From NCBI GenBank assembly GCA_028375605.1, contig JAONGR010000004.1, positions 1 through 64,000 of the forward strand: a stretch of 64,000 nucleotides of DNA, read 5' to 3'. The stretch comes from Arcobacteraceae bacterium. GTDB taxonomy: Bacteria; Campylobacterota; Campylobacteria; Campylobacterales; Arcobacteraceae. Each line of letters starts with the position of its first letter. Position 1 is the stretch's first letter. This document shows, piece by piece, positions 1,376 through 5,390 of this stretch. The notes under the pieces were generated by a model. It saw nothing but the letters and a program-made list of their open reading frames with translations. It did no database searches and had not been told where the DNA came from. A program made the position numbers and the translations under genes.

Positions 1376-2257
1376 ATGACTTCAAAAGTAAAGGTATTAT
1401 GGATTACAGGGTTAGCCTGTAATGGTAATAGCCATTCTTTTTTAAACTATCCTTTCTTAGAACAATTTTTAAATGATTTCGAGTTTATAAATCATCCAAT
1501 ATTTGAGAGTACTCATTCTCTTAAAGAAATAGTTACCCAAACTATATCTTGTGATATCTTACTTATTGAAGGTTCTCTTTCACCTGAAATTTTAAAAGCG
1601 GATGTAAGTCTTTTTGACATTATTAAAAAATATTCATCTATTGTTTCAAAAATAGTAACGGTTGGAACATGTGCTACGTATGGTGGAATTTTTCGGAAAA
1701 GTGAGTATAAAGATATCACAGGACTTCATTTTGACGAAAAGAATTTAGTACAAAATTTTCCAGATATAAGACATAAGACGATTAGTATTGCAGGCTGTCC
1801 TATTCATCCTGAGCATTTAGCTAATACTTTATATTCAATTAAAAATAAAATGAAATTAAAACTTGATGAGTATTTACGTCCTAAAGAGTATTTTGCATAT
1901 ACTATTCATAATGGCTGTACTAGAAACGAATATTTTGAATATAAAGTGGACAATCATCAGTTCGGAAAAAAAGAAGGCTGTATGTTTTACGATCATGGTT
2001 GTCAAGCACCTTATACTCATGGAAGTTGTAATAAAATTTTATGGAATGAAGTTAATTCAAAAACACGAGCAGGACAGCCTTGTAATGGTTGTACTGAACC
2101 TGATTTCCCAAAAGCAAATCTTTTTTCTACAAAAAAGAATATGGGTATACCTCAAGTGTTACCTTTAGGGGTAGCTAAAAGGACATATCTTACCTTAGCT
2201 GGTATAACTAAAGCATTTACAATAGATAGATTAGAGAAAGATATATTTGATGATTAA
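1376..2257 (+). CDS. hupU: cytoplasmic [NiFe] hydrogenase small subunit (HupU/HupS-like)
   Basis: A 293-residue Fe-S subunit. The cysteine motifs of the family are all present in order: ACNGNSHS near the start, GTCATYGG, GCPIHPEH, NGCTRNEYF, GCMFYDHGC and PCNGCTEPDF. These would hold three Fe-S clusters that carry electrons from the Ni-Fe site. There is no Tat signal peptide and no C-terminal membrane anchor, unlike HydA at 5570, so the protein should be cytoplasmic. That fits group-2-type uptake or H2-sensing enzymes. Its large subunit is at 4131, separated by a 1.9-kb cassette; normally the two genes are adjacent. The stop codon lies inside ATGATTAAA, a sequence repeated exactly at the start of the large-subunit gene. 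Confidence 0.85.
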   Translation: MTSKVKVLWITGLACNGNSHSFLNYPFLEQFLNDFEFINHPIFESTHSLKEIVTQTISCDILLIEGSLSPEILKADVSLFDIIKKYSSIVSKIVTVGTCATYGGIFRKSEYKDITGLHFDEKNLVQNFPDIRHKTISIAGCPIHPEHLANTLYSIKNKMKLKLDEYLRPKEYFAYTIHNGCTRNEYFEYKVDNHQFGKKEGCMFYDHGCQAPYTHGSCNKILWNEVNSKTRAGQPCNGCTEPDFPKANLFSTKKNMGIPQVLPLGVAKRTYLTLAGITKAFTIDRLEKDIFDD

Positions 2258-2274
2258 AGTAGAGGCACAAAGAT

Positions 2275-2832
2275 ATGACTAAAATGAATAAAATAAGTAT
2301 TTTTCTAGGATTAATTGTAAGTTTAACCGCAATTTGGGATTGGTTATCAGATCGCGTTAATATTGGATTATATATAGTTAATAAAGGAAAAGAGATAGTA
2401 ATATCTATTCTAGATTTTTTTTGGACTGTAATAACTTTTGACATTCAACTTTGGGTAATTATATTATTTGTGTCAGTAATGTTTATTTACTTTAAATTTA
2501 AAAATCATTATTTAAAAGAAAATGAAAGTAGCTTCGTAAAAGAGTATGAGTCTTTAACTGATAATGAAAGAATTATATATGATATTATTGCTGAAAGTAA
2601 TGAAAAACGTAAAAAATGCATTTATAACAGTATATTGAGGAATATTAATCAAAGGGGATACAATATTTCTCATTTAGAATCACATAATGTTATAAAGAAA
2701 TTAATAACCAAAGATTTGATATATAAACAAGATGAATGGATGGATGATAGTCACTTTGTTTTAACAGATAAAGGACAGACTATTGCCATATACTTGATAA
2801 CTAAAAGTAAAAATATTATTAGAAATAACTAA
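2275..2832 (+). CDS. small membrane protein with a C-terminal winged-helix-like domain, possibly a superinfection-exclusion (SieB-like) protein
   Basis: A 185-residue protein I cannot assign firmly. Two hydrophobic segments (about residues 6-22 and 45-75) are followed by a charged cytoplasmic part with the cadence of a winged helix, including SLTDNERIIYDIIAES and DSHFVLTDKGQTIA. This layout (two membrane spans, then 'LT..E..I...I' and 'F.LT.KG') resembles SieB-type superinfection-exclusion proteins, but the match is by eye only. It sits between the two hydrogenase subunit genes, next to an abortive-infection gene, so a defence role is plausible. ATG 2284 is an alternative start. Confidence 0.55.
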   Translation: MTKMNKISIFLGLIVSLTAIWDWLSDRVNIGLYIVNKGKEIVISILDFFWTVITFDIQLWVIILFVSVMFIYFKFKNHYLKENESSFVKEYESLTDNERIIYDIIAESNEKRKKCIYNSILRNINQRGYNISHLESHNVIKKLITKDLIYKQDEWMDDSHFVLTDKGQTIAIYLITKSKNIIRNN

Positions 2833-2879
2833 TAATTAAATTGATAGAAAAATAGAAATTTATTAAGAAATAATTTTGA

Positions 2880-3180
2880 TAAGGGAGAGGAATGAAAGCA
2901 GCATGTCAGATCGACGGGCAGGTTACCCGTGGGGCTATGATTAATATAGAAGGTGAAATTTCAGATATATTGTGCTTTATTGTTTATATCTTTCAAAGCC
3001 CTTTATTAAAGAGTATTATAGATTATTTATTATTACTTGAATTAAATAAATCTTACCCAAGCAGGTCGGTAGCTCGACGGGCTACTAGCCCGTCGTTCAG
3101 AATACCTAAAGAAAACCTTAGGTATACTTTCTTTAATACGCCCCCTCCACCTCTTCATAATGTGCCAAAGAGAGGGTTTT
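2880..3180 (+). ncRNA. candidate structured non-coding RNA upstream of the AbiF-like gene
   Basis: This is the only gene-free stretch over 300 bases (2833-3184). It holds GC-rich elements foreign to the local composition: stem ACGGG/CCCGT at 2914-2930, stem CGACGGGC/GCCCGTCG at 3075-3095, stem ATACCTAA/TTAGGTAT at 3102-3125, and a CCTCT/AGAGG stem at 3150-3175 followed by a T-rich run. Abi_2/AbiF genes are known to be preceded by a conserved structured RNA (the abiF RNA motif, from memory), proposed to restrain the HEPN protein. Position and structure fit, but I could not match the published consensus. A pair of REP palindromes is the alternative. The strand is assumed from the abi gene. Confidence 0.4.
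2900..3095 (+). repeat. two related GC-rich palindromic units in direct orientation
   Basis: Unit 1 (2900-2930) and unit 2 (3060-3095) share the order AGCAkGTC, then AG, then TCGACGGGC, a short loop, and CCCGT. Unit 2 is a near-perfect hairpin preceded by GGTAG. A GTAG-like foot in front of a hairpin is typical of REP sequences mobilised by RAYT transposases, but no transposase is nearby. The units may equally be repeated modules of the RNA proposed for this interval. Confidence 0.55.
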
Positions 3181-3184
3181 CTTT
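3150..3184 (+). terminator. possible intrinsic terminator just before the AbiF-like gene
   Basis: CCTCT (3150-3154) pairs with AGAGG (3171-3175) and is followed by GTTTTCTTTAT running into the abi start codon at 3185. A leaky terminator between an RNA and its protein is the arrangement seen in type III toxin-antitoxin loci. The loop is long (16 bases) and the stem short, so this is tentative. Confidence 0.35.
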
Positions 3185-4138
3185 ATGATAGACTTCAAAG
3201 ATCAACTACAAAATATAAAAAATCAAGAAAATACATATCAGAAAAAACACAAAACTTTTGATGAACAATTAGAGATTTTAAAACAAAGACAACTTAATAT
3301 TTCAAATGATTCATTTGTTTTGACAAAATTACAACATATAAACTACTACAGATTGAGTGCTTATTTTCTGCCTTTTCAATACCAAAAAAATAGTGAAAAT
3401 AAGAATATATTTTTACCAGATACTACTTTTGAAGATATTATATCTACGTATTATTTTGATGCAGAGTTAAGAAAGATAATCTTTGAAGCAATAGAAAGTA
3501 TCGAAATATATTTTAGAACACAAATCGCTTATTTTCATTCTTTAAAATATGATGCGTTTGGTTACTTAGATTTTACAAGTTTTAGAGAAAATAAAGCAGA
3601 TAAATTTGCTGAACTGCAAAGCGATATTTTAAAAGAAAAGACTCGTTCAAAAGAGTTTTTTATAAAACATTTCAAGAAAAAATACAACTCTGTAGATTTG
3701 CCTATTTGGAGTGTAGTTGAGATTATCTCTTTTGGGAGTTTATCAAAAATTTTTATGATATTAAAAGAGGAAGAACAAAATCAAGTAATACAAAATATAC
3801 ATGGTATAAATAAAGTGGTTTTTTATAAATGGTTTCATGCCCTATCAAGTGTTAGAAATATTTGTGCTCATCACAGTAGACTTTGGAATAGAACTTTAGG
3901 AGTTAGTTTTGAAGTACCAAAAGGTTTAGAATCTTTTGAAAATATAAAAGAGAGTAAAAATAAAGTATTTTTTGCATTGAGTGTAATTGAATATTTATTG
4001 ACTTGTATTGGGGAAGATGAAATAGAATTTAAAACAAAAATCAAAAACTTAATAATAAAATACCCAAAAGTAAAACTAAGGAGTATGGGATTTTGTGAGA
4101 ACTGGGAAGAAAATCCTATTTGGAGAAATAATGATTAA
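3185..4138 (+). CDS. abiF: AbiF/Abi_2-family abortive infection protein (HEPN RNase)
   Basis: A 317-residue protein with clear Abi_2 (AbiD/AbiF) signatures: INYYRLSAYFLPF (about residues 52-64), FDAELRKIIFEAIESIEIYFRTQ (91-113) and the HEPN catalytic motif RNICAHH, with R224 and H229, followed by SRLWNR. HEPN proteins with this RxxxxH motif cleave RNA, and the AbiF family stops phage growth by shutting down the infected cell. A structured non-coding stretch lies directly upstream. The stop codon overlaps the large-subunit start (ATGATTAA at 4131-4138), so the gene has slipped into the hydrogenase operon with its translation coupled. All key residues are present and the gene looks intact. Confidence 0.9.
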   Translation: MIDFKDQLQNIKNQENTYQKKHKTFDEQLEILKQRQLNISNDSFVLTKLQHINYYRLSAYFLPFQYQKNSENKNIFLPDTTFEDIISTYYFDAELRKIIFEAIESIEIYFRTQIAYFHSLKYDAFGYLDFTSFRENKADKFAELQSDILKEKTRSKEFFIKHFKKKYNSVDLPIWSVVEIISFGSLSKIFMILKEEEQNQVIQNIHGINKVVFYKWFHALSSVRNICAHHSRLWNRTLGVSFEVPKGLESFENIKESKNKVFFALSVIEYLLTCIGEDEIEFKTKIKNLIIKYPKVKLRSMGFCENWEENPIWRNND

Positions 4139-5390
4139 ACTAATAGAAAAAATAGAAGGTGAAGCAAAACTTCATTTTAGTTTTAAAGATAAAAAAATTG
4201 ATTTTGTGGATATAGAATTTTTACAAACAAGAAGTATTGAAAAGATACTTGAAGGTAAAAATGTTTTAGATGCTTTAGTTATAAATCCTAGAGTATGTGG
4301 TATTTGCGGACATGCTCACTTAATAGCTACTGTTGAAGCTATTGAAGACTGTTATGATGAGATAGAGATATCGCCTAAAGCTAAAAAAATAAGAGAATTA
4401 ACGTTAACTTTCGAGTTAATTCAAAATCATTTTAAATGGTTCTACTTTACCGTATTACCTTTATTTGGTCATAAACAAGCTATTTTAAAAGCGTCACTTC
4501 CTTCACAACTTATGTCAAAAGCAATAGCTGTCATTGGTGGACAATATCCTCATAATTCATATGCAATTGTAGGAGGGATAGTAAGTGATGTTACACAAAT
4601 GGATCTTATCAAAGTAGAACAGTATATAAGTGAAACGCAGAAGTTTTTTGATGAAAATATAATTTCTTTAGAAGATGAAGATATAAATGAGTGTGAAAAT
4701 ATAGATAATCTATTTAATCAAAAAGGTGATTTATCTCAAATATTAGATGATATTTTGAAGAATAATTGGGAATATTTAGGTAAAAGTTTTGATAGGTTTA
4801 TTGCTTTTGGAGAGACTAGTTATTTCTCAAAAGGAAAATCACTAAAAACAAGAAGGTTTACAAATATAGAAATTGAAGATGTAAAAGAATTTGAATCTTT
4901 AAATTCATATGCTAAAAATGTTACTTTTAAGGATAAGTATTTTGAAGTAGGACCACTAAGCCGTGCTATTATAAATAAAAATAATCTTATTAAAGATGTA
5001 CATGATAAATATGAAGATAGTATATTGAGTAGAATAGTAGCACGAGTATGTGAAATACCACAATTATTAAAACACACAAAAGAACTAATTTCTCAAATTA
5101 ATGTAAATGAACCATCTTATATAAAACCGAAAATTGACATCTCTAAAATAACAGCATCTGGTTATTCTGCTGTTGAAGCTGCACGGGGTTCTTTGATACA
5201 TAAAGTAAACATTGAAAATGGAATTATCAAAAAATATGAAATTATTACTCCAACACAATGGAACCTCTCTAATGGTACAAGGGATAATTTAGGAGTTTCA
5301 CAAAAAGCGATGATTGGTTTAAAAGATGAAAACATAGCTGAAATTGTTTTTAAATCTTTTGATGTTTGTTCTGTTTGCACTACCCATTAA
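4131..5390 (+). CDS. hupV: cytoplasmic [NiFe] hydrogenase large subunit without C-terminal propeptide (HupV-like)
   Basis: ATG 4131 is taken as the start (419 residues) because GGAGAAATA lies directly before it. The L1 motif RVCGICGHAH and the C-terminal L2 motif DVCSVCTTH supply the four cysteines of the Ni-Fe site. The protein ends exactly at the histidine after which ordinary large subunits are cut, so no maturation protease is needed. Lack of this extension is characteristic of regulatory H2 sensors (HupV/HoxC). However, the L1 motif continues as GHAH rather than the SVSQ common in sensors, so a small cytoplasmic uptake enzyme is not excluded. Its partner is the subunit at 1376. Confidence 0.85.
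   Translation: MIKLIEKIEGEAKLHFSFKDKKIDFVDIEFLQTRSIEKILEGKNVLDALVINPRVCGICGHAHLIATVEAIEDCYDEIEISPKAKKIRELTLTFELIQNHFKWFYFTVLPLFGHKQAILKASLPSQLMSKAIAVIGGQYPHNSYAIVGGIVSDVTQMDLIKVEQYISETQKFFDENIISLEDEDINECENIDNLFNQKGDLSQILDDILKNNWEYLGKSFDRFIAFGETSYFSKGKSLKTRRFTNIEIEDVKEFESLNSYAKNVTFKDKYFEVGPLSRAIINKNNLIKDVHDKYEDSILSRIVARVCEIPQLLKHTKELISQINVNEPSYIKPKIDISKITASGYSAVEAARGSLIHKVNIENGIIKKYEIITPTQWNLSNGTRDNLGVSQKAMIGLKDENIAEIVFKSFDVCSVCTTH

Follow-up and report, generated by a model that had tools for sequence, protein, structure and literature searches.

Cas13 is thought to descend from an AbiF-type HEPN enzyme. The C. difficile AbiF is a toxin, and its RNA has been established experimentally to neutralise the protein in cis and in trans by direct binding; premature termination is a further way in which the RNA acts in cis (PMC12373285). 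Inhibition of the PbAbiF RNase has been reported to come from bases in a single-stranded bulge of its RNA, namely C32 and U38 of PbAbiFr (PMC12737573). The stretch of Arcobacteraceae DNA analysed here (64,000 nucleotides, referred to as the window) very probably carries an AbiF/AbiFr RNA-antitoxin module, that is, a type III-like toxin-antitoxin pair, which is inserted between two hydrogenase subunit genes (Table 1). This assignment follows from a conserved RNA with its promoter, the match of the protein to PDB entry 8VZ6 and the presence of an Rx4H motif. An earlier note on this DNA had proposed an RNA that guards AbiF from a position 5' of the gene within a hydrogenase operon; the in-register alignment of Rfam family RF03085, the covariation among relatives and the flanking hydrogenase subunit genes support this proposal.

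Table 1. Positions of the features discussed, in coordinates of the window
Feature	Position	Strand	Remarks
NiFe hydrogenase small-subunit gene	1376-2257		precedes insert
Insert between hydrogenase subunit genes	2259-4139		bounded by 9-bp direct repeat ATGATTAAA
185-aa ORF in insert	2275-2832	+	no match in Pfam or NCBIfam
Degenerate tRNA-fMet copy 1	2887-2948	+	GC-rich stem 2914-2930; aligns to tRNA positions 2-62
Degenerate tRNA-fMet copy 2	3060-3101	+	GC-rich stem 3077-3093; aligns over ~42 positions
-10 promoter box TATACT of antitoxin RNA	3123-3128	+	fixed spacing in 23 loci
AbiFr-type antitoxin RNA, bulged hairpin (predicted)	3135-3180	+	covariation; R1 65 bits; RF03085 15.3 bits
P1, outer stem	3140-3147 with 3170-3177	+	8 bp; covariation
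P2, inner stem CAC/GUG	3148-3150 with 3162-3164	+	3 bp
Loop of RNA	3151-3161	+	11 nt
3' bulge of RNA, CCAAA	3165-3169	+	5 nt
abiF, HEPN RNase toxin (predicted), 317 aa	3185-4138	+	Pfam Abi_2; PADLOC AbiD; PDB 8VZ6
Hydrogenase large-subunit gene	4131-5390		follows insert

The protein family of the putative toxin is clear. AbiF passes the curated cut-off of Pfam Abi_2 (187.9 bits, cut-off 25.6; E = 2.9e-55), matches the PADLOC AbiD model (3.3e-78) and has a sole match in the PDB, the PbAbiF-RNA complex 8VZ6, which extends over residues 20-314 (4.2e-42). The HEPN Rx4H motif is present as RNICAH; in the alignment its R224 and H229 correspond to R210 and H215 of 8VZ6, the double mutant of which is inactive (PMC12373285). 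AbiF was found by tblastn in 80 phage records, and a scan of a set of viral contigs gave no match.

Relatives of AbiF were gathered from Campylobacterota, and comparison of the DNA upstream of 23 loci revealed a short element directly 5' of the abiF start codon in all 23. In the window it is an element of 46 nt, AAUACGCCCCCUCCACCUCUUCAUAAUGUGCCAAAGAGAGGGUUUU, whose 3' end is separated from the start codon by 4 nt. An alignment of 14 close sequences has P1 with 8 bp, P2 and a 5-nt 3' bulge, with an 11-nt loop in most of them, and two-sided, compensatory changes occur in seven of the eight P1 pairs, so that the covariation in relatives which the earlier note had named as a test is clearly present. 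P1 cells are paired in 96.8% of cases, compared with 35-57% when the partners are slid; the covariation score of 0.382, as against 0.236±0.025 in shuffles, was attained by none of 500 shuffles, and the same 11 pairs are predicted by RNAalifold unaided. A wider, model-fitted alignment, which is biased towards structure, has nine of the 11 pairs covarying. The loop, the inner stem and the 3' bulge are conserved in sequence. P1 of the window contains one C-A mismatch, which is common to locus L022, and the fold of the window RNA as a single sequence is unexceptional (z = -0.64).

The gap before abiF to which the earlier note had drawn attention is indeed long (352 nt, 2833-3184), and a predicted RNA partner of AbiF does lie there; it is, however, the 46-nt element rather than the whole 305-nt interval that had been put forward, and the supposed terminator-like stem (3140-3177) exists but belongs to the conserved RNA. 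When the interval is folded as one, its gain over shuffled sequence is small (z = -1.95), the comparative signal coming from the 46-nt element. A single RNA of the whole 315 nt was also considered and discarded, its fold pairing the two tRNA copies described below without comparative support. An ORF of 98 aa spanning the gap (2892-3188) was judged spurious, as it has no match in Pfam and crosses the conserved RNA.

A covariance model built from the RNAs of the relatives (R1) scores the window RNA at 65 bits and detects a single copy, both in the window and in the assembly, a 62% complete draft. Across 397 Campylobacterota genomes R1 gave 17 matches of at least 40 bits, 15 of which lie directly 5' of abiF. 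The model likewise recognises abiF loci outside its training (L158, L159, L161, L162 and L164; 54-68 bits) and, on a plasmid from a cyanobacterium (L091, 47 bits), the RNA that precedes abiF; among the abiF loci read that have enough upstream DNA, such a hairpin or a variant of it is visible in all. The remaining two strong matches are orphan AbiFr-like RNAs without abiF, one of which is followed by a nine-codon stub where abiF would stand (L042, genome G070), while the other is located downstream of an HsdS-like gene (L044, genome G055), the genes being named from sequence in both cases. It is possible that these orphans are solitary antitoxins or remnants.

The covariance search with RF03085 that the earlier note had suggested aligned the family over its full length and in register at 3143-3177, although below threshold: at 15.3 bits the window RNA stays 21.7 bits short of the gathering cut-off of 37 bits, and RF03085 was not reported at the RNA in broader Rfam scans of the window. 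At the same place, the cut-off is passed in more distant Campylobacterota (L016, 47.1 bits; L015, 41.0; L168, 45.2; L169, 44.1), and it is passed 5' of abiF in the C. difficile phage phiC2 (L088, 37.6 bits). On a Metabacillus plasmid, RF03085 scores 39.6 bits and R1 22.1 bits, so that the RNA of this plasmid, as judged from its sequence, bridges the two subtypes. The architecture of RF03085, with a 3-bp inner stem, a loop of ~11 nt and a 3' bulge, is found in the window RNA, as is the position directly 5' of abiF. By predicted architecture and position it is thus the same kind of RNA as RF03085, while by the Rfam threshold it is no called member. Weak Rfam matches to SQ1002, SSRC41, BsrG, drz-agam and miRNA families were far below their cut-offs and were set aside. 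A third hairpin subtype occupies the same place 5' of abiF in L013, L014, L163, L166 and L167, e.g. CUCUCGGGUGCU...CUGACUGGGAGG.

The RNA would be transcribed from a promoter of its own. A hexamer spaced exactly 12 nt upstream from where the RNA begins matches TATAAT in at least four of six positions in 23 of 23 loci, with a mean match of 5.3/6 as compared to ~2.2 at other offsets, and in 21 of the 23 this hexamer is the best nearby site. From the -10 box of the window, the start of the RNA is expected at ~3135. The 3' strand of P1, GAGAGGG, likely is the ribosome-binding site of abiF as read from the sequence, and accordingly the hairpin probably restrains toxin synthesis in cis. A U-rich tail follows the hairpin; a generic terminator scan identified no standard terminator there, which leaves the attenuation part of such a control weak. 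With the hairpin ending 4 nt before the start codon, and with the C. difficile RNA also acting in cis via premature termination (PMC12373285), it might be argued that the element is purely a cis-regulatory leader of abiF, an attenuator or a cover of the ribosome-binding site, and not an antitoxin acting in trans. We regard this as very improbable, as the sequence of loop, inner stem and 3' bulge is conserved beyond what is needed in cis, which also holds for RF03085, the family of the AbiF-binding RNA of C. difficile, and as the two orphan copies persist without abiF.

In analogy to PbAbiF and to AbiF-RCd22 of C. difficile, an antitoxin acting in trans would function as follows. An RNA of ~46 nt would be produced from its own promoter and fold into the bulged hairpin, which AbiF dimers would bind tightly, the single-stranded bulge holding the HEPN RNase site inactive; the CCAAA bulge of the window is a plausible candidate for the counterpart of the inhibitory bulge of PbAbiFr. 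In cis, the same hairpin would limit synthesis of the toxin through the likely ribosome-binding site in its 3' strand and the U-rich tail. Upon loss of the RNA, e.g. when a phage disturbs host transcription, AbiF may be freed and cut RNA, and growth would stop, which would amount to a role against phages.

The module occupies an unusual place within a hydrogenase operon. The hydrogenase small subunit was examined in 29 other loci, in 27 of which the large subunit was located, and in 26 of these 27 relatives the distance between the genes is -8 to +27 nt, so that they adjoin or overlap. In the window they are parted by ~1.87 kb (the 1.9-kb insert), and the 9-bp direct repeat ATGATTAAA is present at both ends of the insert (2250-2258 and 4131-4139). 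The sole other interrupted junction, L068 in genome G118, has an apparent gap of 331 nt with a repeat-like stretch, and in L060 the stop of the small-subunit gene overlaps the start of the large-subunit gene within a similar GATGATTGA. Chimerism of the assembly at this junction is unlikely, given that neither half of the hydrogenase is disrupted and that their order is as expected. In L022, the AbiF of which is 89% identical, the module is located within what looks like a type I restriction operon, where the end of abiF likewise overlaps the next start codon. The DNA common to both loci corresponds to 3107-4138; thus, based on sequence comparison, promoter, RNA and abiF look like a mobile unit that is separate from the rest of the insert (2259-3101). 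Matches of plasmid and phage DNA to the gap were dismissed as chance AT-rich similarity. The 185-aa ORF has no match in Pfam or NCBIfam, and relatives of it were found neither among 200 genomes of the order nor in plasmids; two apparent membrane segments and a weakly regulator-like C-terminal part (phrog_11046, E = 0.0018) were observed. As a separate observation, type I restriction genes repeatedly contain or adjoin abiF or its RNA (L022, L044 and L091).

The two related GC-rich stem units described in the earlier note are present (2906-2937 and 3069-3101; 61-63% GC as compared to 29% for the window), but they had been taken as part of the AbiF RNA and instead align to initiator tRNA-fMet. 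In a DNA search of 104 genomes of the family, which produced many short AT-rich chance matches, one recurrent match of ~33 nt was traced to initiator tRNA genes. None of 2000 shuffles attains the tRNA-fMet alignment score of the first copy, and the local score of the second copy is 56, compared to a maximum of 44.5 in 2000 shuffles and 27.5 for the best non-fMet tRNA; other tRNA types score about half as much as tRNA-fMet for the two copies. The alignments are partial and degenerate, and ARAGORN called no complete cloverleaf at the stems. Within the window, degenerate tRNA-fMet copies occur only at these two places. As RCd22 possesses two abiF motifs (PMC12373285), two related stems 5' of abiF could be thought to be the RNA that AbiF binds. 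This is almost certainly incorrect: the stems are missing from ~40 further abiF loci, L022 with its 89%-identical AbiF among them, the exception being one fragment in genome G437; both stems align to tRNA-fMet, and RF03085 and R1 match neither stem but only 3135-3180. Further readings were abandoned. Genome-wide REP elements, which the earlier note had seen as speaking against its proposal, do not fit, as a search that tolerated up to 3 mismatches returned no copies other than these two from the 62% complete assembly; when 396 other Campylobacterota genomes were searched with a 32-nt pattern based on the second copy, none had a match. Ends of an IS200/IS605-type element or a MITE were considered in view of the 75% inverted repeat that the stems make up, and were dropped once both stems had been aligned to tRNA-fMet.

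Recombination or insertion at tRNA-fMet sequence likely left the stems behind as scars, unless they are decayed tRNA genes that were carried along; in either case they are likely to be functionless today. Their partial and degenerate nature is in line with this, and the segment in common with L022 begins just beyond them, at 3107. Similarly, in G437, which belongs to another family, a piece of the tRNA-fMet anticodon arm lies directly after the abiF stop (L033, ~2470-2530; G437:C2:1278962) and is missing at the orthologous place in G212; in 30 genomes no other exact fMet anticodon arm lies outside tRNA genes, except in one tRNA truncated at the end of a contig. In both cases the pieces are located at the edges of the module, these being only two cases that were found after the fact. 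An origin as scars would leave unexplained why all ten anticodon-stem bases are kept in both copies while the loops are changed, which is unexpected from plain decay, although this contrast is partly due to detection, which favours kept stems. No integrase was seen, either, and an integrative island at tRNA-fMet in G437 and G212 was rejected, as the genes between abiF and the tRNA genes appear to be ordinary chromosomal ones. It might be speculated that the pieces are functional mimics of the anticodon arm with altered loops, tying AbiF to the initiator tRNA as decoy, sensor or regulator, to which we give very little credence. If this were true, AbiF would act on tRNA-fMet anticodon arms, and its two occurrences, each in a different family, would have arisen by separate capture events and not as scars.

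The abiF RNA family reaches well below the Rfam cut-off: most of the Campylobacterota abiF genes read here are accompanied by a clear but sub-threshold predicted antitoxin RNA, and annotation therefore leaves these toxins without antidotes. The 46-nt, promoter-fixed and covarying set offers a compact model in which to study inhibition of the HEPN enzyme by AbiF RNAs. As the module separates the genes for two subunits of the same enzyme, hydrogen metabolism could be affected if the module were lost or activated.

As in type III systems such as ToxIN, an RNA antitoxin is encoded before a toxic RNase, both being predicted ones here. In contrast to ToxIN, the toxin is of the HEPN type instead of the ToxN fold, and the antitoxin is a single hairpin instead of a tandem repeat. 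Like C. difficile AbiF-RCd22, the window has a HEPN AbiF encoded 3' of a structured RNA with an abiF hairpin and a putative promoter of its own (PMC12373285; RF03085). However, RCd22 has two hairpins and the window RNA one, which abuts the start codon and has no separate terminator hairpin, and the inner stem is CAC/GUG without a spacer A, whereas the C. difficile/RF03085 kind has AGC/GCU. The pair predicted in the window shares with PbAbiF-AbiFr a single RNA hairpin with a single-stranded bulge (PMC12737573), and with PbAbiF (8VZ6) homology over nearly the whole length of the protein, the catalytic R and H being aligned. Thus, the AbiF/RNA system is of a known kind, while its placement within a hydrogenase operon is unusual and the sequence of its RNA is divergent.
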